This document shows, piece by piece, positions 53,163 through 64,000 of a DNA stretch of 64,000 bases. This stretch comes from Flavobacteriia bacterium 40-80 (GTDB lineage Bacteria > Bacteroidota > Bacteroidia > Flavobacteriales_D > Crocinitomicaceae): the NCBI GenBank assembly GCA_001899145.1, contig MKVF01000018.1, positions 496,001 to 560,000 on the forward strand. Reading direction: 5' to 3'. The notes beneath the pieces are model-generated. The model was not told the DNA's origin. It ran no database searches and was given only the letters and a program-made list of their open reading frames with translations. The position numbers were made by a program, and so were the translations under genes. Numbering within the stretch: position 1 is the first letter of the stretch; every line of letters begins with the position of its first letter.

Positions 53163-53939
53163 ATGAAAGTGTATATAATTCTGATTCTTGTTTTGTTTTC
53201 AACAATAACCGGAATCACACAAGAGAATAAAATTAAACTCTCACTTAATGTTTCAAATACTTTTATGAATTGTTTCAGGAGTTATAAGGATTTAATATTC
53301 GATTTAACTACTATTGGCTTTGGGATTGATATCAAAAAAACAAATGGTAATTTCAGATTGCATGCTGCTTATGGATTTAATACATATATAGAACCCACAA
53401 GAGAAACTTTATACTATATAAAAAGTTTTTCCTATAAAAGCCATTTATTAGGTTTAGCTTTCGAGTATCATCGCTTAAACGAGCAAAAAAGATTCCACCC
53501 TTTTATCGGAATGAGTATTAGCAGCGAAATTGCTACCAACTATAAAAATGGATATATTCATTACAAATATGAATATTTCCCTCCATATCCGCATTCGGAT
53601 GTATTCGGACAAGGTCCGGGCGGTGGTCCATATTATTATATATCATATAAAACAAGGTCCTATCAGTCTATGCCATTGGTAAGCACCTTTTATGCCGGTT
53701 GCAATATTAAAATAGTTGAAAATCTGAACTTGAATCTTTCTCTAGGTTATAATTTGAGTTTAATGAATTATAAATATGTACAATGGTCATATAATGGTTA
53801 TGGAAAACCGGATGAAAGTACTGTTAAAAAAGATTACTATAATAGCTTGGGAACGACACCTGTTCAAATATTAGTATTACATTCTTTAGCGGTGCAACTC
53901 GGTTTAAACTATACATTTCCACTAAAGAAACAGAAATGA
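53163..53939 (+). CDS. Predicted small outer-membrane beta-barrel protein (member 3)
   Basis: 258 aa. Signal peptide (IILILVLFSTITGITQ). Strand pattern as in its neighbours (IGFGIDIKKTNGNFRLHAAYGF, VSTFYAGCNIKIVENLNLNLSLGYNL) with a Pro/Gly/Tyr-rich loop (PHSDVFGQGPGGGPYYYIS). It ends LGLNYTFPLKKQK and overlaps the next gene by four bases. Confidence 0.68.
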   Translation: MKVYIILILVLFSTITGITQENKIKLSLNVSNTFMNCFRSYKDLIFDLTTIGFGIDIKKTNGNFRLHAAYGFNTYIEPTRETLYYIKSFSYKSHLLGLAFEYHRLNEQKRFHPFIGMSISSEIATNYKNGYIHYKYEYFPPYPHSDVFGQGPGGGPYYYISYKTRSYQSMPLVSTFYAGCNIKIVENLNLNLSLGYNLSLMNYKYVQWSYNGYGKPDESTVKKDYYNSLGTTPVQILVLHSLAVQLGLNYTFPLKKQK

Positions 53940-54622
53940 GGTTTCTAGTTATTTACACCTCTTTTTTATCCGTTTTTTGTTTTTCACAGGAGAAATATAA
54001 AATGATCGTTGAAATCTCGGATAACAATTCTATTGATATTATAGGAACAGGTAACTTTTTTTCGGGTACAAACTTTTCTGTGGGCACACAGATAGATACT
54101 AAAAAAAGTAGTTTCAATTTATCCGGTATATATCAGTTTGGAGGAAACTGGTGGGGAGCTCCTCCTTATTATATGAAGTATCACTTGTTGGGAATAAAAC
54201 TAAAGTATAGAGTTTTAAATATTGAAAGAAGAGTCAGTCCATTTTTTGAAATAACAGGATTAACAGAAGTTGGAACTAATTATAGAGATAGTTATATTTC
54301 ATATAGCTGGAGACCAACCACTTATGCTTCTGAATTTTCAAATTTGTCTTACTCTTCCAGATTTTATGCAGGAACCCCCTTTGTTGGTAATCTACTTTTA
54401 GGATGTGATATCCGCCTTGTACATGGTTTGCATTTGAATATCTCGGCCGGGTATGGTTTGAGGGTAATGTTAACAAGATATGCAATTTGGTCAAAAGGAT
54501 ATATGCTTTCAAAAGAGCAGATTCATGAACGCTCCGTAAGTACAAAGAATTTACACATGCTGGATTTTCAGTTGGGTCTGAGTTATGCTTTTTCGTTTAA
54601 GAAGAAAACTAAAAATATATAG
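53936..54622 (+). CDS. Predicted small outer-membrane beta-barrel protein (member 4)
   Basis: 228 aa. Signal peptide (FLVIYTSFLSVFCFSQ). Very similar to members 1 and 6 from GTPFVGNLLLGCDIRL onward. Bases 54356-54438 are identical to 55771-55853 of member 6. Ends FSFKKKTKNI. The next ATG is one base after its stop. Confidence 0.7.
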   Translation: MRFLVIYTSFLSVFCFSQEKYKMIVEISDNNSIDIIGTGNFFSGTNFSVGTQIDTKKSSFNLSGIYQFGGNWWGAPPYYMKYHLLGIKLKYRVLNIERRVSPFFEITGLTEVGTNYRDSYISYSWRPTTYASEFSNLSYSSRFYAGTPFVGNLLLGCDIRLVHGLHLNISAGYGLRVMLTRYAIWSKGYMLSKEQIHERSVSTKNLHMLDFQLGLSYAFSFKKKTKNI

Positions 54623-54623
54623 A

Positions 54624-55343
54624 ATGAAAACATTCGCCTTTTTTATTCTGTTTCCGGTGTTTTTCTGTTTTTCACAAAACACTTTGTTTTCAACGAGAAT
54701 AGCCAATGCTGTATCAGCAAATATTACTTCTGATTATCTGACTGTTTATAATGGTACTTCTTTGGGAATAGGAGCCCAGATTAATGGAACTGGAGGAAGT
54801 TTAAGTATTTTATCTGTGTATCAGTTTGGGGGCTCTTTAGTCTCTAATGGCTTAAAACCATATTTGATGCAGAATCATTTTGTGGGAGGCACTATTCAGT
54901 ACAGAATTCTGAGTGAATCAAAATCAATTAGTCCTGTAGTTGAAATGACTGCACTTACAGAGATAGCATCTAACTATCGAGGTGGTTATATTAAAGATTA
55001 CGGTCCCCAAAAATTTCCTTCTGCATATTGGACTAGTTATGGAAATGGACTTCAAATTGATTATTATCATTCTGATTATTACATTTCTACTCCAATGATC
55101 GGAAATTTATTAATCGGTTGTGATTTTCGGATAATCAACGGATTGAATATAAATGTTGCATTGGGCTATGGTTATCGAATAATGAAGATCAGGTATAAAC
55201 AATGGCATCCTGATGAGCAAGAACCTTGGGCAGATTTATCTGGTAAATATAACTTAAAAGATGGAGATTTGCTTCATTGTGTTGATTTCCAAATAGGTTT
55301 AAATTATACTTTATCAGTAAAGAAAAAAACTAAAAATATATAG
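54624..55343 (+). CDS. Predicted small outer-membrane beta-barrel protein (member 5)
   Basis: 239 aa from ATG 54624. The frame extends back to 54585, but only this ATG gives a signal peptide (FAFFILFPVFFCFSQ). Strands GTSLGIGAQINGTGGSLSILSVYQF, IGNLLIGCDFRIINGLNINVALGYGYRI. C-terminus LSVKKKTKNI. The junctions at both ends repeat the same 25 bases (about 54605 and 55326), 721 bases apart, which points to a tandem duplication of a gene-sized unit. Confidence 0.7.
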   Translation: MKTFAFFILFPVFFCFSQNTLFSTRIANAVSANITSDYLTVYNGTSLGIGAQINGTGGSLSILSVYQFGGSLVSNGLKPYLMQNHFVGGTIQYRILSESKSISPVVEMTALTEIASNYRGGYIKDYGPQKFPSAYWTSYGNGLQIDYYHSDYYISTPMIGNLLIGCDFRIINGLNINVALGYGYRIMKIRYKQWHPDEQEPWADLSGKYNLKDGDLLHCVDFQIGLNYTLSVKKKTKNI

Positions 55344-55344
55344 A

Positions 55345-56028
55345 ATGAAAGTATTCGCCTTTTTTATTCTGTTTCTGTTTTCGGTGGTTTTTTGTTTTTC
55401 ACAGAAGAAATACAAAATGATTGCTGAAATTTCCAATACATCTTCCCTGAATATTATACCAACATTTAATTTGTACTCCGGAACAAATATCTCAGCAGGT
55501 TCGCAGATAGAAACTAAAAAAGGTAATTTTAATATTATGGGAACATATCAATTCTCAGGAAATTACTGGCGGGGAGCTGTTTTTTCTTTACAAAGTCATT
55601 TATTGGGGATCATTTTTCAATATCGAATTTTGAGCAATGAACGAAAAATAAGCCCTTTTGTGGGTATTTCTGCTATTACAGAAGTGGGAACCAACTATAA
55701 AGACAAATATATTTCACGTGACTTGGCTCCAAGTATTTATCCTGAAGAATTTTCTAATTTGTCTTCTTTTTCCAGATTTTATGCAGGAACCCCCTTTGTT
55801 GGTAATCTACTTTTAGGATGTGATATCCGCCTTGTACATGGTTTGCATTTGAACATTTCGGCTGGTTACGGTTTGAGGGTGATGCTGACAAGATATGCAA
55901 TCTGGTCAAAAGGGGCTGTTCTTTCAAAAGAACAGATTCATGAATATTCCATAAATACAAAGAATTTTCACATGTTGGATTTTCAGTTGGGTCTGAGCTA
56001 TGCTTTTTCATTTAAGAAAAGGAAATAA
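55345..56028 (+). CDS. Predicted small outer-membrane beta-barrel protein (member 6)
   Basis: 227 aa. Signal peptide (FFILFLFSVVFCFSQ). Its first half is nearly the same as member 1 (GTNISAGSQIETKKGNFNIMGTYQF, SHLLGIIFQYRILSNER) and its second half nearly the same as member 4, so it looks like a mosaic. Ends LGLSYAFSFKKRK. Last gene of the cluster. Confidence 0.7.
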   Translation: MKVFAFFILFLFSVVFCFSQKKYKMIAEISNTSSLNIIPTFNLYSGTNISAGSQIETKKGNFNIMGTYQFSGNYWRGAVFSLQSHLLGIIFQYRILSNERKISPFVGISAITEVGTNYKDKYISRDLAPSIYPEEFSNLSSFSRFYAGTPFVGNLLLGCDIRLVHGLHLNISAGYGLRVMLTRYAIWSKGAVLSKEQIHEYSINTKNFHMLDFQLGLSYAFSFKKRK

Positions 56029-56207: not shown

Positions 56208-56645
56208 ATGAGCTTAGTAAAATTTGACAAAGGAGAAGCATTCAATCAGTTTCCGAATGTATTTGAAGATTTCTTCGGAAAGGATTTTTTCAACAGAGTT
56301 GCGCCAAAAGCTTCCGTTCCATCTGTGAACGTGAAGGAGTCGGACAGCAGATTCGAAGTGTTTTTAGCTGCTCCGGGGCTAAGTAGAGAAGATTTTAATA
56401 TCTCCGTTACAGACAATGTTCTGACAGTTTCCGCGGAAAGCAGGCAGGAAAAAGAAGAAGCCAAAGAGGACGGAAGATTTACACGTAAAGAATACAGCTA
56501 CAGTAAATTCGCGCGTTCATTTACACTTCCTGAAAATGCCGATACGGAAACGATCGCAGCGAAGTATGAGAACGGTGAGCTGAAGCTGGAAATACCGAAA
56601 GTAAACCCGGTGAAGCCAACCGTAAAGCAAATTTCGGTAGAATAA
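56208..56645 (+). CDS. hsp20: Small heat shock protein, Hsp20/alpha-crystallin
   Basis: 145 aa. A short N-terminal arm with FEDFFGKDFFNR, then the alpha-crystallin domain (VPSVNVKESDSRFEVFLAAPGLSREDFNISVTDNVLTVSAES, REYSYSKFARSFTLPENADTETIAAKYENGELKLEIPK). It holds unfolded proteins until they can be refolded. Monocistronic, with own upstream element and terminator. Confidence 0.93.
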   Translation: MSLVKFDKGEAFNQFPNVFEDFFGKDFFNRVAPKASVPSVNVKESDSRFEVFLAAPGLSREDFNISVTDNVLTVSAESRQEKEEAKEDGRFTRKEYSYSKFARSFTLPENADTETIAAKYENGELKLEIPKVNPVKPTVKQISVE

Positions 56646-56689
56646 AAAAGCAAATAGTTTAGTTTTTTCATAGTTAGGTTTAGTTTGGG

Positions 56690-56722
56690 CGGTCTTTTGC
56701 GAACAGCGAAAGGCCGTTTTTT
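56690..56722 (+). terminator. Rho-independent terminator after hsp20
   Basis: CGGTCTTTTGC (56690-56700) pairs with GCGAAAGGCCG (56706-56716) using two T-G pairs, then TTTTTT. Confidence 0.85.
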
Positions 56723-56756
56723 GTTGTCGATAAGACAAGCCTAAATAAAAAATAGT

Positions 56757-56764
56757 TACATTTG
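56757..56764 (+). promoter_or_regulatory. -7 element of the B12 operon (TACATTTG)
   Basis: TACATTTG matches TAnnTTTG and ends four bases before the first paired base of the riboswitch, so the transcript should begin at the riboswitch P1 stem. Confidence 0.6.
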
Positions 56765-56767
56765 TAC

Positions 56768-56917
56768 CGCATTATAGCGATTGGGAATTCCGTGCAAACC
56801 GGAAACTGTATCTGCAGCTGTAAATCCTGTGAATGCCATTCAATAAGTCACTGTACGTCATTTGACAAGCGGGAAGGCGGATGGACGGGGATGAGTCAGA
56901 ATACCGGCTATGATGTG
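56768..56917 (+). promoter_or_regulatory. Cobalamin riboswitch (B12 aptamer)
   Basis: The class-typical blocks appear in order: GGGAATTCCGTGCAAACCGGAAACTG, then CAGCTGTAAATCC, GCCA...GTCACTG, GGGAAGGC and the B12-box-like GATGAGTCAGAATACCGGC. The closing helix P1 pairs CCGCATTATAGC-side bases 56768-56778 with GCTATGATGTG at 56907-56917 (two G-T wobbles). Downstream, to the ATG at 57037, about 119 bases hold a weak hairpin (GACTT/AAGTC) and no obvious terminator, so control may act on translation. Confident from sequence pattern. Covariance scoring was not possible. Confidence 0.88.
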
Positions 56918-57036
56918 TATTAGTGAAGACTTCAGATTAAAGTCGGGCTGTATGTTGCTTTTTTCATATCCGGAAAAAGTGTTCATGTTCTCTTATCTGA
57001 TTTCTTTAATGTTTAACTTTTTTAATTAATTAAAAC

Positions 57037-57999
57037 ATGAAGAAATTTTTATTTTCGGCCCTTGCGGCAATTCCATTCGTAATGAATGCACAAAATGTAG
57101 TGGATTTTGAAGACCTTAACCTGTCGGCAGAATCGTATTACAACGGTTCCGACGAAGCAGGAAGCTTTGCTTCCGGAGGCGTTTCTTTCAGCAATACTTA
57201 TGTGAATGATCCTTCTTATCCTTACTGGGCAGGCGGTTTTGCTTATTCCAACATGACAGATAACACCACTGCAGGATTTACGAATATGTACAGCGCTTAT
57301 CCGGCATCAGGAGCAGGAAGTTCCGCTAAATATGCAGTATTTACACCGGGATACAGTGGTGCTGAGCGCGTTGATTTCAACGGTACGGTAATAGTGAACA
57401 AGCTGAAGATCACCAATACGACTTACGCGTACTTATCAATGAAAGATGGAGACAGTTTTGCTAAAAAATTCGGTTCAGCGACAAATGCTGCCGGTGAAGC
57501 AGACGGAACGGACGGAAAAGACTTTTTCTATGTAACGGTTTATGCCCATGATGTAAATGATGAAAAAACAGATTCATTAGACATCTATCTGGCAGATTTC
57601 CGTTTTGAAGATGATAACGACGATTATATTCTGGGTTCATGGAAAGAGATAGCTGTTAACCTTGTAGCGGCAAAATTATCTTTTAAGCTGACTTCTTCTG
57701 ATATCGGGGAATACGGGATGAATACACCGGCTTATTTTGCGCTGGATGATATTGAATATGCAACGAACGTAGGAGTGAAAGGACTGGATAAAGTTCAGGT
57801 TTCTGTTTATCCTAATCCTGCTGAAAATCAATTGTTCGTAAATAACTATTCAGGAACTGCCGGCATTTACTCAATGACAGGTGCATTGGTAAAATCCGTT
57901 CAGCTGGACGGAACAACAGCTGTTGATATTACGGAGCTTACGACCGGAATTTATCAATTGGTTACGGAAACGGGAAGCGTAAAATTCAATAAGCGTTAA
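57037..57999 (+). CDS. DUF4465 surface protein, T9SS cargo, first gene of B12 operon
   Basis: 320 aa. Signal peptide (FLFSALAAIPFVMNAQ). DUF4465 body (VDFEDLNLSAESYYNGSDEAGSFASGGVSFSN, ending YFALDDIEYA) over residues 20-245, then a T9SS type A tail (VSVYPNPAENQLFVN, ending KFNKR). DUF4465 proteins are often found with TonB receptors and cobalamin riboswitches in this phylum. A corrinoid-capture role is inferred from this context only. The stop shares one base with the receptor gene. Confidence 0.85.
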   Translation: MKKFLFSALAAIPFVMNAQNVVDFEDLNLSAESYYNGSDEAGSFASGGVSFSNTYVNDPSYPYWAGGFAYSNMTDNTTAGFTNMYSAYPASGAGSSAKYAVFTPGYSGAERVDFNGTVIVNKLKITNTTYAYLSMKDGDSFAKKFGSATNAAGEADGTDGKDFFYVTVYAHDVNDEKTDSLDIYLADFRFEDDNDDYILGSWKEIAVNLVAAKLSFKLTSSDIGEYGMNTPAYFALDDIEYATNVGVKGLDKVQVSVYPNPAENQLFVNNYSGTAGIYSMTGALVKSVQLDGTTAVDITELTTGIYQLVTETGSVKFNKR

Positions 58000-59945
58000 T
58001 GTTTAAAAAAGGTGTCTTTTTGTTTTTTCTGATCTGGAGGAGCATCGCCTTCGGACAGGAGGAGCAATTAGACACCTTGACTATTTCCGTCAAAGGAAAA
58101 CCTTCCGGATTGACAACCATTTCTTCAAAAGAAATTTCTCTTTTTCAGCCCAATGACCTGGGTGAAATCCTTCAGAAGCTTCCCGGAATTACCGTAAAAA
58201 ACTACGGTGGAATAGGAGGAATGAAGACTGTTTCGGTTCGTGGTCTCGGAAGTGCTCATCAGCAGATCGTAATGGACGGCTTTATCGTTCCGAATACACA
58301 GACGGGACAAATTGATCTGGGAAACGTATATGCCTCTAATATTGAATTAGTACAGCTGATTTCCGGGGGATTTACAGATAAGCTGCTTCCCGTAAGCGCG
58401 CTGCTTGGCGCAAATGCTTTATGGATCGAACGATCAGAATCTGTGTTTCCGGCAAAAACGTATTCATTGAAGTCTAAAATTTCTTACGCTTCCTTCAATA
58501 CGTTTGAAACGTGGATTTCGAATAAGATCCGTCTTACATCTAAACACGCGCTGGCTTTAAGCGGAAGCTTCCGTTCTTCCGCCGGCAATTATCCGTATCG
58601 TTTTATGAATTACGCGCAGCATTACACCGGAAAAAGAGTTAATGCCGATGTGCTGGACGGTACCGGCAATGCGGTGTACCAGTTTGTGATTTCCAAAACG
58701 ATAAAACTATACGCTGATTACTCATTTTTCGCCAGCGATAAAGGACTTCCCGGTGCGGTAATCCTCTACCTGAATGCGGCACAGCAGCGTTTGAATACAC
58801 AGACGCACCAGGTGAATGCCGGGCTTGACCTCAGCTTTAAACGCTGGAAAGGACGTTTTTATACAACTTACAAAAATGAAAAGATAATATACCTGGATGA
58901 AGGCTATCTGAACACGCAGGGATTTATGCGGTCAGTCTATCACCAGCAGCAGCTGATCTCCGGCTGGGTGATGAATCAATCGCTTGGAAAATTTTTCCGG
59001 CAGGAACTGGGGATAGAATCTTTCCTGGCGAAGCTGACAGGAGATATTTCACAGGATGTACAGCCTCAGCGTATCCAGATCAAAGGCTTTTACGGTGTCG
59101 GGCCTGTTTTTCCCTGGGGAAGCTTCCGGGCGCAGGTGGCAGGACAAACCCTGAATGATTTTAATGGAACCGTTGCTCTGCACAAAACAAAAGGATTCTT
59201 CCAGCCGGGAGTTTATTTTGATACAAAAAAAGACTGGAAGATAATCGGTGATCTCCGGTTGTTTTATAAACGAAATGTTCGTGTGGCAGGCTTTAATGAA
59301 TTATATTACAACCAGGTAGGGAATAAAAACCTCCTTCCCGAAATCGCAGATCAGGTCCAGTTCTCCTTTTCAAAGGAGTACAGGAAAAATAAATACAGCC
59401 ACCAATACGGAGCAAACGCCTATTACAACCAGGAGCACAATAAAATAGTAGCGATACCTACAAAAAACCTGTTCGTGTGGATGATCCAGAATGTGGACGA
59501 GGTGCAGGTGCTGGGAACAGATCTTCAGTACCGTTACCTGCATTTCTGGAAAAACTGGAACCTCTCGGCTTCTGTTAACTATACGTTTCAGTCCGTTACA
59601 AACAGAACAGATAAAAATACCTCGTATTACGGCGATCAGATTGCCTATTTCCCGGAGCATATCGGAAACGCGGATCTTGCCGTGAACTGGAAAAATGCGG
59701 GATTATCCCTGAATATCTTCGCGGTTGGGAAACGTTATGCGCTGAACGAAAATATTCCGTCCAACGAGGTGGAAGGCTATATTACGGCAGATGTCCAGGC
59801 ATCATATAAATTTCAGTTTAAAGCTACGCACCACCTGACGGTACGTGCCATGTGTAAAAATATCGGTAACTTGACCTATGCTTACGTGAAGTATTACGTA
59901 ATGCCGGGTGCAAACTATTTAATTGTCCTGAATTATGAATTTTAG
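57999..59945 (+). CDS. btuB: TonB-dependent outer-membrane receptor, BtuB-like
   Basis: 648 aa. Signal peptide (GVFLFFLIWRSIAFGQ), TonB-box-like EQLDTLTISVKG, plug domain at about 35-130 (EILQKLPGITVKNYGGIGGMKTVSVRGLGSAHQQIVMDGF) and a 22-strand barrel ending in MPGANYLIVLNYEF. Short for a receptor (no carboxypeptidase-like N-terminal domain), as in B12 receptors. Placed under a cobalamin riboswitch and followed by a beta-propeller lipoprotein, so corrinoid uptake is the likely substrate. Confidence 0.87.
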   Translation: MFKKGVFLFFLIWRSIAFGQEEQLDTLTISVKGKPSGLTTISSKEISLFQPNDLGEILQKLPGITVKNYGGIGGMKTVSVRGLGSAHQQIVMDGFIVPNTQTGQIDLGNVYASNIELVQLISGGFTDKLLPVSALLGANALWIERSESVFPAKTYSLKSKISYASFNTFETWISNKIRLTSKHALALSGSFRSSAGNYPYRFMNYAQHYTGKRVNADVLDGTGNAVYQFVISKTIKLYADYSFFASDKGLPGAVILYLNAAQQRLNTQTHQVNAGLDLSFKRWKGRFYTTYKNEKIIYLDEGYLNTQGFMRSVYHQQQLISGWVMNQSLGKFFRQELGIESFLAKLTGDISQDVQPQRIQIKGFYGVGPVFPWGSFRAQVAGQTLNDFNGTVALHKTKGFFQPGVYFDTKKDWKIIGDLRLFYKRNVRVAGFNELYYNQVGNKNLLPEIADQVQFSFSKEYRKNKYSHQYGANAYYNQEHNKIVAIPTKNLFVWMIQNVDEVQVLGTDLQYRYLHFWKNWNLSASVNYTFQSVTNRTDKNTSYYGDQIAYFPEHIGNADLAVNWKNAGLSLNIFAVGKRYALNENIPSNEVEGYITADVQASYKFQFKATHHLTVRAMCKNIGNLTYAYVKYYVMPGANYLIVLNYEF

Positions 59946-60999
59946 AAAGTTGCTTGTTGTCTCTTCTTTTGTGCTGGCACTGCTCAGCTGTAAAAAGGAA
60001 ATACCTCCGGTGGAAGAAGATGGAAATAAGCTGAAAAACGGTTTTTTAGTCCTGAATGAAGGGTTGTTCCAGCTGAACAATTCCAATATGTCATGGGTGG
60101 ACCTGGCGACAGGCTCCGTCAACTACCAGATCTTTGAGGAACGTACCGGCAGGCAGCTGGGCGATACCGGGAACGATATGCTGATCTATGGAGGAAAGCT
60201 GTACGTAGTGACGAGTGTTTCTTCCACGCTTGAAATTCTGGATGCAAAAACATTAAAGTCGATTAAGCAGCTTTCAGTTGTTGAAAATAACACAGCACAA
60301 CAGCCTCAGAACATTACCGCTCTGAACGGGGAAATTTATTTTTCAACCTTTGGAGGAAAAGTGTGGTGTGTGGATACGGCAACGCTGGAAGTAAAAAGTA
60401 AAATCCAGGTAGGGTCGAATCCTGACAAGATCACGAATGATGGACAGTACATTTATGTATCTAATTCCGGCGGATTAAATTATCCTGATTATGATTCTAC
60501 TGTTTCTGTTATCCATCCTGTTACAAAAACAGAAATAAAAAAAGTAACTGTTGCGGCAAATCCGGGAGAAATCGTTGTCGGTCCGGATCAGAATATTTAC
60601 GTGATCACCCGCGGTAACTATGCAGAAGTTCCTGCGGCTTTACACCGGATTAATAAACAGACGCTGGAAAAAGACACGACGTATGCTGTGAAAGCTTTAT
60701 ACCTGATTAATTTCAGTAACACGGAGCTGGTTGTTGCGTATTATAATTCTTCCGGTAATGTAGAAGTAGCAAAGTTTAATGTTTCTCAGCAGCAGTTGAA
60801 AACACCGAATTTTATTGATTTAAACGGCATCACTACTTTTTATGGAATTCAGTATTCTTCAGCTAAAAATCAATTTTATGTGAAAGATGCAAATTCCTAT
60901 ACAAATTCTGGGACTTTACGTGTTTACAATAGTTCAGGAACATTTTTAACATCCTATTCTGTAGGATTGAATCCCAATAAAGTTATTTATTATGAATAA
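59935..60999 (+). CDS. btuG: Beta-propeller surface lipoprotein, BtuG-like (DUF5074/YncE type)
   Basis: 354 aa. Lipobox at LALLSC (Cys19). The rest is a repeating propeller blade pattern: GFLVLNEGLFQLNNSNMSWVDLATGSV, MLIYGGKLYVVTSVSSTLEILDAKTL, YVSNSGGLNYPDYDSTVSVIHPVT and NPGEIVVGPDQNIYVITR. Bacteroides BtuG proteins of this type sit on the cell surface and hand cobalamin to BtuB. The ATG overlaps the receptor gene by 11 bases, a strong sign of shared function. Direct B12 binding is inferred. Confidence 0.8.
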   Translation: MNFRKLLVVSSFVLALLSCKKEIPPVEEDGNKLKNGFLVLNEGLFQLNNSNMSWVDLATGSVNYQIFEERTGRQLGDTGNDMLIYGGKLYVVTSVSSTLEILDAKTLKSIKQLSVVENNTAQQPQNITALNGEIYFSTFGGKVWCVDTATLEVKSKIQVGSNPDKITNDGQYIYVSNSGGLNYPDYDSTVSVIHPVTKTEIKKVTVAANPGEIVVGPDQNIYVITRGNYAEVPAALHRINKQTLEKDTTYAVKALYLINFSNTELVVAYYNSSGNVEVAKFNVSQQQLKTPNFIDLNGITTFYGIQYSSAKNQFYVKDANSYTNSGTLRVYNSSGTFLTSYSVGLNPNKVIYYE

Positions 61000-61993
61000 G
61001 ATCAGGCTATTTCTTTTAAGCATTCTTTCAGTGCCTTTTGGTTTTTCCCAAAGCTATGCACCGCCGGCAGATCAGCCCGGAACAACAGCTATTCATATGG
61101 ATAGTTCTGTCTTCGTAGCATGGGCAACAGGTTTGACTGTGGAGCGCGGCTACTTAAACAGCACAGACACGAGTGTGCAATATCAGGGGAGCAACAGAGC
61201 CAGTTTTGGTGTAGATACAATGGTGCTTGGAAAACCGAAGGGAATGACCACTATGGCTGTCAGTCTGGGAGACGGAGGTACGGCAATTCTGACATTTGAT
61301 GTGCTCATTAAAGACGAACCGGGATGGGATTTTGCGGTATTTGAAAATTCATTTTCAGATGATTTTCTTGAGCTGGCATTTGTGGAGGCGAGTTCTGACG
61401 GGATCCATTATTTCCGTTTTCCGGCGCATACGGAAGTGCCGTTTGATGTGCAGATAAATGGCTTCGGATCAATGGACTGCCGTTATATTAATAACTTTGC
61501 GGGAAAATACAGGCTGAATTACGGAACTCCGTTTGATTTAAGCGAGTTGCCGGATGATGCTTTATTGGATAAAAATGCGGTCAGGTATATAAAATTGATT
61601 GATGTTGTCGGAACAATAAATCCGGAATATGCTTCATCTGATGCTTTTGGAAATATTGTCAACGACCCTTTTCCGACACCGTTCAATTCCGGCGGTTTCG
61701 ATCTGACAGGCGTTGGAGTGATTCATGCTGTTCCCGACCCTGAATTAGCAGTAATAACGACCGATGAAGAAATGAAGCTGACGGTTTATCCGACTGTTGT
61801 TTCTGACTTTGTAACGATCAAAGCGGACAGAGAATTTTCCTATACGGTTTATTCTGCTGAAGGGAAGTTTATCGCCGGAGGAGAAGGACAGTCCGGGGAA
61901 AATAAGCTGGAACAAATTCCGTTTCAGGCAGGAGTCTATTTGCTGAAAATATACTCCGGAAGAAATGCAAAGACTTTCAGGCTGGTAAAATAA
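60992..61993 (+). CDS. Secreted surface protein with T9SS tail, fourth gene of B12 operon
   Basis: 333 aa. Signal peptide (LFLLSILSVPFGFSQ). The body contains VSLGDGGTAILTFDVLIKDEPGWDFAVFENSF, FLELAFVEASSDGIHYFRFP and NAVRYIKLIDVVG, a beta-sandwich pattern shared by secreted PEP-CTERM and T9SS cargo. The T9SS tail is KLTVYPTVVSDFVTIKA, ending TFRLVK, with PT in place of PNP. It overlaps the propeller gene by eight bases. Probably cell-surface and related to corrinoid uptake by context. Confidence 0.8.
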   Translation: MNKIRLFLLSILSVPFGFSQSYAPPADQPGTTAIHMDSSVFVAWATGLTVERGYLNSTDTSVQYQGSNRASFGVDTMVLGKPKGMTTMAVSLGDGGTAILTFDVLIKDEPGWDFAVFENSFSDDFLELAFVEASSDGIHYFRFPAHTEVPFDVQINGFGSMDCRYINNFAGKYRLNYGTPFDLSELPDDALLDKNAVRYIKLIDVVGTINPEYASSDAFGNIVNDPFPTPFNSGGFDLTGVGVIHAVPDPELAVITTDEEMKLTVYPTVVSDFVTIKADREFSYTVYSAEGKFIAGGEGQSGENKLEQIPFQAGVYLLKIYSGRNAKTFRLVK

Positions 61994-62013: not shown

Positions 62014-62568
62014 TTACCAGTTCATTCCGGTCCATTTCCACAAGCCGTGTTCTCGTATAAGGATCATTTTTTTACCATGTTGCGGCTGAATCCGGAACAT
62101 ATTTTCCATCGGAAACTCCATGATCAGCTGTAGAAATACACGAATAACTCCCGAGTGGGTAATGATCAGTACTTTATCACCGGAGTGTTTCTGTTCTATT
62201 TCCGTAAGAAAATCCCGTATGCGTCTCTGCATAACCAGAAGGTTTTCCCCGTTGGGCGGTGTTACGTGAATAAAATCAGTGTACCATGGTTGAATCTGTT
62301 CCGTTGGAATTGCATCCCATTGCTGTAGTTCCCAGTCGCCGAAGCTCATCTCTATCAGGCGGTTTTCCACGGTATAATCCAGCTGAAAATGATCAGCAAG
62401 CTGTGTACAGCGTTTCAAGGGACTTGAATAAACAGCAGAATAGTCTTTTTCCAATTGTATGGAACTTAGGTCATCGGGCCATTCCGGGCGTAACTCTACG
62501 TCCGATTGTCCGAAGCAGAAGGCATCGGAAACAGCTACTTTTGTGTGGCGGATTAAATGAAGCTCCAT
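62014..62568 (-). CDS. cobC: Histidine phosphatase, CobC-like (alpha-ribazole phosphatase)
   Basis: 184 aa from ATG 62568. The longer frame back to 62721 lies inside cobS and adds no domain. Begins MELHLIRHTKVAVSDAFCFGQSDVEL with the RHT catalytic histidine, then VYSSPLKRCTQLADHF, LIEMSFGDWE and VLIITHSGVIRVFLQ (second histidine). Removes the 5'-phosphate of alpha-ribazole or cobalamin-phosphate. The ATG overlaps the cobS stop by 16 bases. Confidence 0.88.
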   Translation of the reverse strand: MELHLIRHTKVAVSDAFCFGQSDVELRPEWPDDLSSIQLEKDYSAVYSSPLKRCTQLADHFQLDYTVENRLIEMSFGDWELQQWDAIPTEQIQPWYTDFIHVTPPNGENLLVMQRRIRDFLTEIEQKHSGDKVLIITHSGVIRVFLQLIMEFPMENMFRIQPQHGKKMILIREHGLWKWTGMNW

Positions 62569-63353
62569 ACGATTAGTATTCCCAGATAAATAGTAAGCTC
62601 TGAAACCTGTTGAATGGCTCCCAGACAATCGCCTGTGTACCCGCCGATATGTTTCTTGAAGTAAGCGGCCAATCCCATTTTTGCAGCGTAGGCAAGTGGC
62701 AGCACGAGTAAAAATTTCCATGCAGGAAAAAACAGAAACGGAATTAAAACAGCTGTTCCACCCATTATCAGTGCAAAAACAGAAAGCGCTTTATCTGCTA
62801 CCGGTTTTGCTTTACTGTCTGCCGTATCACGTACATATTGATGGGTATAGACGGTTGTCACCGCCATAAAACGGCTTGCTGTATTAGCAAGTATCATGGC
62901 GAATAGCACCAGATATATATTATGATCAGCAATCTGAACCAAAACGACAAATTTTAACAGTAATAAAAGGGAGATACCGACCGTTCCGTAGGCTCCGATC
63001 CGGCTGTCTTTCATAATGGAAAGAATTTTTTCCTTTCCGTAACCGCCGCCAAAAGCATCACAGACATCTGTAAAGCCGTCTTCGTGAAAAGCTCCCGTGA
63101 GCAGTACTCCTGCAATGATTGCGAAAATAACAGCGATAGGATTCCCGAATACAAATTGAAAAAGGAAAAACGTAAGCGCATAGATACCTCCGACAATCAG
63201 TCCTGTCCACGAATAGTATTTTTGTGAACGATTCATGATTTCGGAAGAATAAGGGAGCTGAAATGGAATTGGAATGCGCGTAAAGAACATCAGTGCCGTA
63301 CAGAAATAAATAAGTTCCTTTTTTAAATATCCGATCATAATATCATTCTTCAT
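62553..63353 (-). CDS. cobS: Adenosylcobinamide-GDP ribazoletransferase (cobalamin synthase)
   Basis: 266 aa polytopic membrane protein. Family motifs: LMFFTRIPIP near residue 20, TGAFHEDGFTDVCDAFGGGYGKEKILSIMKDSRIGAYG (acidic metal site DGFTD, about 92) and later TRFM-like NTASRFMAVT. It joins alpha-ribazole(-phosphate) to adenosylcobinamide-GDP at the inner membrane. ATG 63353 overlaps the cobT stop by 11 bases. Order cobT-cobS-cobC on the minus strand. Confidence 0.92.
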   Translation of the reverse strand: MKNDIMIGYLKKELIYFCTALMFFTRIPIPFQLPYSSEIMNRSQKYYSWTGLIVGGIYALTFFLFQFVFGNPIAVIFAIIAGVLLTGAFHEDGFTDVCDAFGGGYGKEKILSIMKDSRIGAYGTVGISLLLLLKFVVLVQIADHNIYLVLFAMILANTASRFMAVTTVYTHQYVRDTADSKAKPVADKALSVFALIMGGTAVLIPFLFFPAWKFLLVLPLAYAAKMGLAAYFKKHIGGYTGDCLGAIQQVSELTIYLGILIVWSFI

Positions 63354-64000
63354 TACTCACTTTAGCTTCTTCAAAGCTAGCCATTTCATTCAGGAAATTG
63401 ACGGCACTCTGTATCAGCGGGTAGGCCAGTGCACATCCGGTTCCTTCCCCTAATCGAAGCTGTAAATCAAGGATTGCTTTCTGATCGAAGAGCCGGAGCA
63501 TTTTTTCATGTGCGTGCTCGTCCGAAGTATGACAGAAAATGCAATTGTCAAGAATGTTTCTGTTGAGCTCCGCTGCAATCGCAACTGCTGAAGTTGCGAT
63601 GAAACCATCCACCAGAATAATCATACCATTTCTGTAAGCTTCCTGAACCGCACCCGTCATTTGTGCTATTTCCAGGCCGCCAAATGTCCGGAGAATATCC
63701 ATTGGTTCATAGACAGCAGGATGGCGTTGTTGTACGTTGCTGAGAATGGATATTTTTCTTTGCAGCTGCTCTTCCGTTACTCCTGTTCCTTTTCCTGCGC
63801 ATTCAGAAACAGGCAGCTGATGTATTGCGGAAAAAATCAAAGATGCGGAGGAGGTGTTACCGATGCCCATTTCACCAAAACCGATGATATTGCAGCCTTT
63901 TTGAAAAACATCCCGGACAATTTCAGCTCCTTTTTCTAATGAAAAGGTCAGCTCTTCTGCTGACATGGCTTTTTCATGCACTATATTTCTGCTGCTGTTT
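63343..64000 (-). CDS. cobT: Nicotinate-nucleotide:dimethylbenzimidazole phosphoribosyltransferase, C-terminal part
   Basis: About 218 residues of the C-terminal part are visible; the frame is open to the window edge at base 64000, so roughly the first 130 residues lie outside. Contains NIVHEKAMSAEEL, GCNIIGFGEMGIGNTSSASLIFSAI and GKGTGVTEE, then GGLEIAQMTGAVQEAYRNGMIILVDGFIATSAVAIA and RLGEGTGCALAYPLIQSAVNFLNEMASF (catalytic glutamate in RLGEGTG). It activates the lower base for the cobamide nucleotide loop. A promoter or second riboswitch would lie outside. Confidence 0.92.
   Translation of the reverse strand, partial: NSSRNIVHEKAMSAEELTFSLEKGAEIVRDVFQKGCNIIGFGEMGIGNTSSASLIFSAIHQLPVSECAGKGTGVTEEQLQRKISILSNVQQRHPAVYEPMDILRTFGGLEIAQMTGAVQEAYRNGMIILVDGFIATSAVAIAAELNRNILDNCIFCHTSDEHAHEKMLRLFDQKAILDLQLRLGEGTGCALAYPLIQSAVNFLNEMASFEEAKVSNEE

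Follow-up and report, generated by a model that had tools for sequence, protein, structure and literature searches.

Surface capture of vitamin B12 (cobalamin) in Bacteroidota has so far been detailed for gut Bacteroides, and the locus described here raises the question of whether a relative of that system delivers its capture proteins to the cell surface by another route. The locus lies in Flavobacteriia bacterium 40-80, in a stretch of 64,000 nucleotides (contig MKVF01000018.1, positions 496,001 to 560,000) that we call the window. It comprises a cobalamin riboswitch and four genes: gene 1 (a BtuJ-type DUF4465 protein), gene 2 (a BtuB-like receptor), gene 3 (a BtuG-like lipoprotein) and gene 4 (an unnamed secreted protein, P4). 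We consider it probable that this is a corrinoid-uptake operon that combines a BtuB-BtuG gate with BtuJ-type and BtuH-like capture proteins exported by the type IX secretion system (T9SS). The operon, its riboswitch, the protein families and the C-terminal tails are confirmed observations. Judged by its gene families, the operon is a BtuB-BtuG-BtuJ-BtuH-like set and a variant of the Bacteroides corrinoid-capture system. Open reading frames (ORFs) were read from the sequence, and signal peptides and lipoboxes were judged by eye.

The cobalamin riboswitch proposed in the initial annotation was recovered by Rfam model RF00174 at 56736-56926 on the forward strand, with 70.5 bits against a gathering score of 31.5, and no other Rfam match in the window reaches its gathering threshold. 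When the RNA is folded from 56765, an 11-pair P1 closes a cobalamin-like core. For its composition, the aptamer has an unremarkable folding energy (z -0.39; 70 of 200 shuffles equally good), so the support from the fold is architectural only. Behind the riboswitch stand four ORFs, as had been annotated, and each overlaps the next (by 1, 11 and 8 bases in succession); therefore, they very likely share a single transcript.

The cobamide loci of Bacteroides thetaiotaomicron (B. theta) encode BtuB, BtuG, BtuH, BtuJ and BtuK (PMC6143338, PMC8941943, PMC12751083, PMC10404256). The window resembles these loci in its cobalamin riboswitch, its BtuB-BtuG gate, its BtuJ (DUF4465) protein and its BtuH-like domain. 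BtuG, BtuH, BtuJ and BtuK of B. theta are described as lipoproteins, in agreement with the earlier statement that Bacteroides B12 loci use surface lipoproteins, whereas in the window a lipobox is found on BtuG only and the BtuJ-type and BtuH-like proteins end in T9SS tails.

The two gate components agree with their initial descriptions as a BtuB-like receptor and a BtuG-like propeller lipoprotein. Gene 2 encodes a plug domain (54.2 bits), and its nearest PDB chain is BtuB1 of B. theta at 189.7 bits, with all others below 26. Its score against the BtuB equivalog model TIGR01779 is 72.3 bits, short of the cut-off of 599.7, and for this reason we name it BtuB-like. Gene 3 matches DUF5074 with 81.9 bits and its nearest PDB chain by sequence is BtuG1 (169.1 bits). 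Given this predicted propeller, an N-terminal lipobox (LALLSC, by eye) and the adjoining btuB-like gene, gene 3 has the marks of a BtuG.

The DUF4465 identity of gene 1 is firm (PF14717, residues 61-239, 145.4 bits against a cut-off of 25). The protein has a signal peptide and an MNTPAY loop at residues 228-233, its nearest PDB chains by sequence are DUF4465 structures, and it shares the Pfam domain and an MNTPxY-type loop with DUF4465/BtuJ (9FCT, 9I2L, 9HMU). At the tyrosine position of this loop, 20 of 37 aligned relatives have Phe and 16 have Tyr. Eight divergent DUF4465 members, one of them from Fluviicola, bind B12, and the HI-loop tyrosine is conserved (PMC13398666); BtuJ1 and BtuJ2 are described in PMC12751083. 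DUF4465 is thus already known as a B12 binder from papers of 2025-26, and the initial suggestion of a candidate new corrinoid binder loses its novelty for this protein (PMC12751083, PMC13398666). Gene 1 lacks a lipobox and has, at residues 257-318, a T9SS type A tail in its place, unlike BtuJ1 and BtuJ2, whose lipoprotein anchor is not family-wide. Among the C-terminal domains recorded for the family, we take IPR026444 to be the T9SS-type sorting domain and IPR013424 to be PEP-CTERM. C-terminal extracellular targeting domains were counted in 38% of 824 DUF4465 proteins (229 with IPR026444 and 88 with IPR013424) and were never combined with a lipoprotein signal (PMC12751083). Since both the binding and the C-terminal domains are published, neither the binder type of gene 1 nor its tail is a discovery.

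P4 has a signal peptide, a BtuH-like domain (61043-61729) and a T9SS type A tail (residues 265-333). The domain matches no Pfam model; Pfam and NCBIfam give the T9SS tail only, and the full sequence has one match in the PDB, in the tail region. An AlphaFold model of the domain has a mean predicted local distance difference test score (pLDDT) of 94.8 and a predicted template modeling score of 0.92. Foldseek returned three PDB matches at E ≤ 0.001 with this model, all of them BtuH-domain chains of B. theta: 8blw_B (1.0e-4), 7biz A (2.4e-4) and 7biz B (2.7e-4). VIA-align, which re-ranks Foldseek's top 1000 matches, gave Z 12.4 for 7biz_B (157 residues, 3.2 Å, chain 318-593) and Z 11.2 for 8blw_B (165 residues, 3.8 Å, chain 392-660), in each case across the BtuH domain, followed by PAPP-A2 (Z 9.4) and CBM32 (Z 9.2). 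This gap in fold scores is real but not large, and so sequence kinship was tested as well.

We collected 80 P4-related loci by P4 similarity alone. The P4 model was built from an alignment of 74 domains, among them that of the window; six rows that lack the cutting motif and one truncated at a contig end were left out. Searching a phylum sample of 296 genomes with a P4 profile yielded matches of which 8 are strong and 29 weak. One of the weak matches (genome G107, E 2.9e-4) is a BtuH ORF in a 523-residue frame; the other 28 fall outside the window's class, and twelve of these proteins form a divergent sister group. The P4 profile matches the sister group with E 7e-25 over most of the domain, and the sister group matches eleven BtuH domains with E 1.3e-8 over 96 columns, while control comparisons with DUF4465 gave E 0.13 and 0.26. 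A relationship of P4 to DUF4465 was considered and ruled out by the first of these values. With the sister-group profile, the single PDB match at E ≤ 10 is to 8blw_B, inside its BtuH part (E 0.0015 for the whole chain and 0.0088 for the stretch). A sister-group model (pLDDT 74.9) has 8blw_B as its first Foldseek match, and VIA-align gives it Z 11.8 for 7biz_A and 11.7 for 8blw_B, with the next at 8.1. BtuH-profile matches (1.5e-7 to 2.9e-5) also occur among the ORFs of three of the eight divergent loci examined. The first member of our BtuH set scores 418 bits to 8blw_B and 192.7 bits to 7biz_A; partial or duplicate rows (L157, L159, L161 and copies in L124, L132-L134 and L138) were left out of this set.

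Eight B12 contacts are reported for BtuH: Gln333, Asn399, Phe401, His476, Tyr510, Trp511, Trp577 and Leu578 (PMC8941943). Asn399 and Phe401 sit within a GNAF motif, and they align with Asn119 of P4, kept in 81 of 81 sequences, and Phe121, kept in 73. P4 thus resembles BtuH2 (7BIZ) and the H-domain of BtuG1 (8BLW) in fold, in this B12-contact Asn/Phe motif and in operon company. It differs from them in its length (about 230 residues versus about 275), in having no PKD or propeller partners and no lipobox, in the absence of a direct PDB sequence match, and in that six of the eight contacts are without an established counterpart. Taken together, the model and the profile comparisons make P4 look distantly related to the B12-binding domain of BtuH, and we regard this as a new and well-founded identity for an unnamed family. 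Given its T9SS tail and the lack of a lipoprotein anchor, we call P4 BtuH-like rather than BtuH. The initial annotation had listed the last protein as a candidate binder; this is now sharpened to a relative of the BtuH domain by fold and profiles, with corrinoid binding a prediction from that kinship. P4 and BtuH occur together in none of the 296 genomes, G107 apart, where the P4-profile match is the BtuH ORF itself. Mutual exclusion of the two was considered and set aside, as carriers number only 8 and 7 and the comparison is uninformative.

The gene company of P4 bears on its role. Across the 80 P4 loci, btuG was detected in 53, btuB in 47, DUF4465 in 36 and a riboswitch in 52, eight of the riboswitches having been used to build the home-made model that found them. 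A weak model was considered as the cause of the missing riboswitches and rejected, since an Rfam rescan of 9 of the 28 negative loci gave 0 matches; many of the other negative loci are short contigs. The commonest gene orders, with J for the DUF4465 gene, are P4-BtuB-BtuG (18), BtuB-J-P4-BtuG (12), J-P4 (10), J-P4-BtuG (8) and BtuB-P4-BtuG (8). A btuB and/or btuG gene is also present at seven of the eight divergent-group loci examined. Homologs of btuG occur in 124 of the 296 genomes, mostly one each, from which a chance neighbor within 17 kb is expected at about 1% of loci. Of the 39 relatives searched, a number that counts the window's own genome, 26 have a strong P4 match. In addition to the window, the phylum sample supplied seven strong-P4 loci; a riboswitch was matched at five of these (L112-L116), and L114 has btuB/btuG-type genes by eye. 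One locus (L047), on a contig titled Woesearchaeota archaeon, has a typical Bacteroidota P4-btuG pair with a riboswitch, and its label is probably wrong.

Several results weigh against a role of P4 in corrinoid capture or against its kinship with BtuH. By sequence, the P4 domain has two chance-level PDB matches and none to BtuH at E ≤ 10, and the direct comparison of P4 with the BtuH profile (E 7.4e-5, 62% probability) covers 36 columns. The Foldseek superpositions are loose (template modeling scores of 0.42-0.45, root-mean-square deviations of 10-11 Å), 7biz is absent among the best 50 matches listed for the sister-group model, and the fold is common to CBM32 and discoidin-type sugar or protein binders. 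Clear counterparts exist for only two of the eight BtuH contacts: Gln333 aligns by eye with P4 residue 28, which is Gln in 43 of 81, and none is established for His476, Tyr510, Trp511, Trp577 or Leu578. None of btuB, btuG and DUF4465 was found in 10 of the 80 loci, several of which are contig stubs, and btuB or btuG was detected in only two (L115, L116) of the seven phylum-sample loci. No B12 gene was detected near P4 in the subgroup L057, L061, L068, L080 and partial L072, which by eye has ftcD-, START-domain-, queE- and folD-like neighbors; L060 likewise has none of the B12 trio, in a neighborhood that is different again. BtuK2 and BtuL of B. theta did not bind cobalamin (PMC12751083), so operon membership does not prove binding.

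The contact residues, the subgroup without a B12 gene and the negative BtuK2 and BtuL results would fit an alternative in which P4 has kept the BtuH fold for another ligand or only for use as a surface scaffold, leaving capture to DUF4465 alone. It would also accommodate P4-like domains found inside proteins of 985-2309 residues in two relatives (G320 and G330), twice in some, which indicate that the domain is used outside B12 loci. We think this alternative rather unlikely. A btuB, btuG or DUF4465 homolog lies within the fetched flank of 70 of the 80 P4 loci, and P4 keeps an invariant polar and aromatic set in all 81 sequences (W44, D113, E118, N119, K172, D204, D217 and D237, with residue 227 always aromatic) that includes the counterpart of Asn399.

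The initial annotation had placed T9SS sorting domains on two of the four proteins, and TIGR04183 (cut-off 23) indeed finds them on gene 1 (32.4 bits) and gene 4 (29.4 bits). The genome encodes SprA (507 bits) and 91 T9SS tails above the cut-off, and genes 1 and 4 accordingly qualify by sequence as T9SS type A cargo. If the sorting domains were non-functional, the proteins would remain periplasmic. The tail scores are modest and the Pfam tail model, which gene 1 passes (36.7), misses gene 4 (21.9 versus 27), but TIGR04183 recurs at E ≤ 0.01 in 78 of 81 P4 and 34 of 37 DUF4465 proteins and SprA is present, and a periplasmic location seems to us quite improbable. It is scarcely credible that both T9SS proteins are ordinary cargo merely co-transcribed with a btuB-btuG operon: with 91 tails in the genome a tail alone says little, but DUF4465 is an experimentally established B12-binding family whose member here has MNTPAY with its Tyr, and the DUF4465-P4 pair recurs, fused into one ORF at three loci (L029, plus L038 and L040, which nearly duplicate each other) and, on other contigs, accompanied by weakly scored PEP-CTERM-like tails.

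The operon thus appears to use two routes, with BtuG, which in B. theta docks on BtuB, as a lipoprotein and the BtuJ-type and BtuH-like proteins bearing T9SS tails. Of 51 btuG homologs found by tblastn at P4 loci, 36 fit the lipobox pattern and the other 15 have a Cys after a hydrophobic stretch (by eye). In B. theta, BtuH forms no stable association with the BtuBG core (PMC10404256); a common anchor with the gate is therefore not required of a capture protein. SprA was found in all eight strong-P4 genomes, in all eight divergent-group genomes examined and in five of seven BtuH genomes; having the T9SS therefore does not force its use for BtuH. The earlier proposal of a different surface route stands as to the presence of the tails, while C-terminal targeting domains had already been counted in DUF4465 (PMC12751083). 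We found no description of a T9SS-tailed BtuH in the open literature searched, which did not cover subscription journals and preprints. As a whole, the proposed T9SS-linked corrinoid capture retains its riboswitch, receptor, BtuG, tails and secretion system, and loses the novelty of DUF4465.

Other delivery tags were observed among the relatives. At L064:6786-7595 a DUF4465 protein is a lipoprotein (FMQSC), while the P4 of the same operon ends T9SS-like (by eye); this DUF4465 protein groups with four T9SS-tailed ones with a support of 99. On an Opitutaceae-titled contig (L081:751-2402), DUF4465 and P4 are adjacent, both with weakly scored PEP-CTERM-like tails, and on an Akkermansia-titled contig (L074:7062-9065) they are again adjacent, with a PEP-CTERM-like tail on DUF4465 only (by eye, weak matches). 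A DUF4465 tree of 44 rows, made by a quick method with tag labels set by the author and with long branches present, needs three tag changes, two of them forced by starred branches. One DUF4465 alignment leaves out eight rows that lack the cutting motif as well as those not 300-350 residues long, and L021 and a minus-strand ORF of L073 were removed from the DUF4465 set as tail-only matches (by eye). The lipobox of L064 and the PEP-CTERM-like tails of L081 suggest that the surface tag can change between relatives.

We infer corrinoid binding by P4, secretion, hand-over and regulation, which would together work as follows. Plentiful B12 would act through the cobalamin riboswitch to lower expression of the operon. 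BtuB and its lipoprotein lid BtuG would form the outer-membrane gate, and the BtuJ-type DUF4465 protein and P4 would be exported via Sec and then through the T9SS, to be kept on the cell surface or released. There they would bind scarce corrinoids tightly and pass them to BtuG-BtuB, and the adjoining salvage genes cobTSC would complete incomplete corrinoids once imported. The window and its relatives carry the binder set of gut Bacteroides under another delivery tag, with P4 looking BtuH-like. If this reading is right, BtuH-type capture reaches beyond the gut, a family without a Pfam model gains a testable function, and the question arises whether corrinoid carriers are released rather than anchored.

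A bolder proposal, which we hold only tentatively, is that P4 founds a large unnamed branch of a BtuH superfamily, a portable module with exchangeable tags (lipobox, T9SS, PEP-CTERM) that includes LIC_13355 of Leptospira, and that some members are shed as corrinoid carriers in T9SS bacteria. Such shed carriers, if real, would be a protein counterpart of siderophores. The profile of the Leptospira LIC_13355 lipoproteins, NF033170, matches 30 of 81 P4 members at E ≤ 0.01 and the sister group more strongly, the best match being L091 (9e-12), whose 44.7 bits lie below the curated cut-off of 120. These matches suggest that LIC_13355, P4 and the sister group have a BtuH-like domain in common. Passages from five papers give no B12 link or B12 neighbors for LIC_13355 (PMC3953431, PMC8055020, PMC5348505, PMC3493377, PMC11891782). 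Published comparisons of an AlphaFold model of LIC_13355 were made with structures other than BtuH, and in L. interrogans the gene annotated as btuB is LIC12374.

The start of the riboswitch can be placed more closely. The promoter box TACATTTG lies 21 bases inside the Rfam match. Because folding from the base after the box gives a P1 that closes a normal-looking core, the Rfam 5' end at 56736 is probably misaligned, and the start at 56757 given in the initial annotation fits better. Boxes of this type are located at -12 to -5 (PMC9723704), so +1 is expected near 56769. No TTG was found 15-27 bases upstream of the box. The TAnnTTTG motif occurs 32 times on the forward strand of the window, or about 5% per 100 bases by chance. 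Of 64 matches to the home-made riboswitch model, 53 were used for a box count and 11 low-ranking ones were left out. The motif stands at the 5' edge in 39 of the 53, elsewhere within 100 bases in eight, and is absent there in six, a count that is partly by construction since the model contains the box columns. In 38 the box falls exactly at model position 1 (in one, at -2); with the box abutting the aptamer so often, the 5' edge of a match will often take in the promoter. By eye, the window aptamer lacks one hairpin present in other rows of the riboswitch alignment. Compared with shuffled sequences, the leader at 56890-57036 has a slightly better fold (z -1.31; 22 of 200 shuffles do equally well), which may serve either attenuation or translation control. 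A second B12-regulated site in the genome, at C18:341528, was considered and rejected at 30.7 bits, below the gathering score; the next listed ORF there (at least 150 residues) resembles ribosomal protein L13 (by eye).

Table 1. Features of the corrinoid-uptake locus and its surroundings, in window coordinates.
Feature	Position	Strand	Basis and remarks
Hsp20 gene	56208-56645		Family match; upstream of the hairpin
Terminator-like hairpin	56687..56719	+	3' of the Hsp20 gene; 1 found versus shuffle mean of 0.4
-7 promoter box TACATTTG, Bacteroidota TAnnTTTG type	56757-56764	+	Motif match
Cobalamin riboswitch aptamer	56765..56926	+	Rfam match and folding; P1 arms 56768-56778 and 56907-56917
Gene 1, BtuJ-type DUF4465 protein	57037..57999	+	ORF, family matches
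Gene 2, BtuB-like TonB-dependent outer-membrane receptor	57999..59945	+	ORF, family and PDB matches
Gene 3, BtuG-like beta-propeller (DUF5074)	59935..60999	+	ORF, family and PDB matches
Gene 4, P4, unnamed secreted protein	60992..61993	+	ORF, tail match, model
cobC-like alpha-ribazole phosphatase	62014..62721	-	TIGR03162, 151.8 bits, below cut-off of 162.9
cobS, adenosylcobinamide-GDP ribazoletransferase	62553..63353	-	Family matches
cobT	63343..64000	-	Family matches; 5' end outside the window

The terminator-like hairpin would separate the operon from the Hsp20 gene. The start of the cobC-like gene is probably near 62568, because its family match starts at residues 52-54. Elsewhere in the genome, methionine synthase (MetH) is encoded in two ORFs of 333 and 896 residues with a gap of about 460 bases (G000:C6:548514-552534). 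Upstream in the window, positions 53163-56028 hold four similar tandem secreted proteins of 227-258 residues that look like outer-membrane barrels (by eye), the second and fourth of which are nearly identical in parts.

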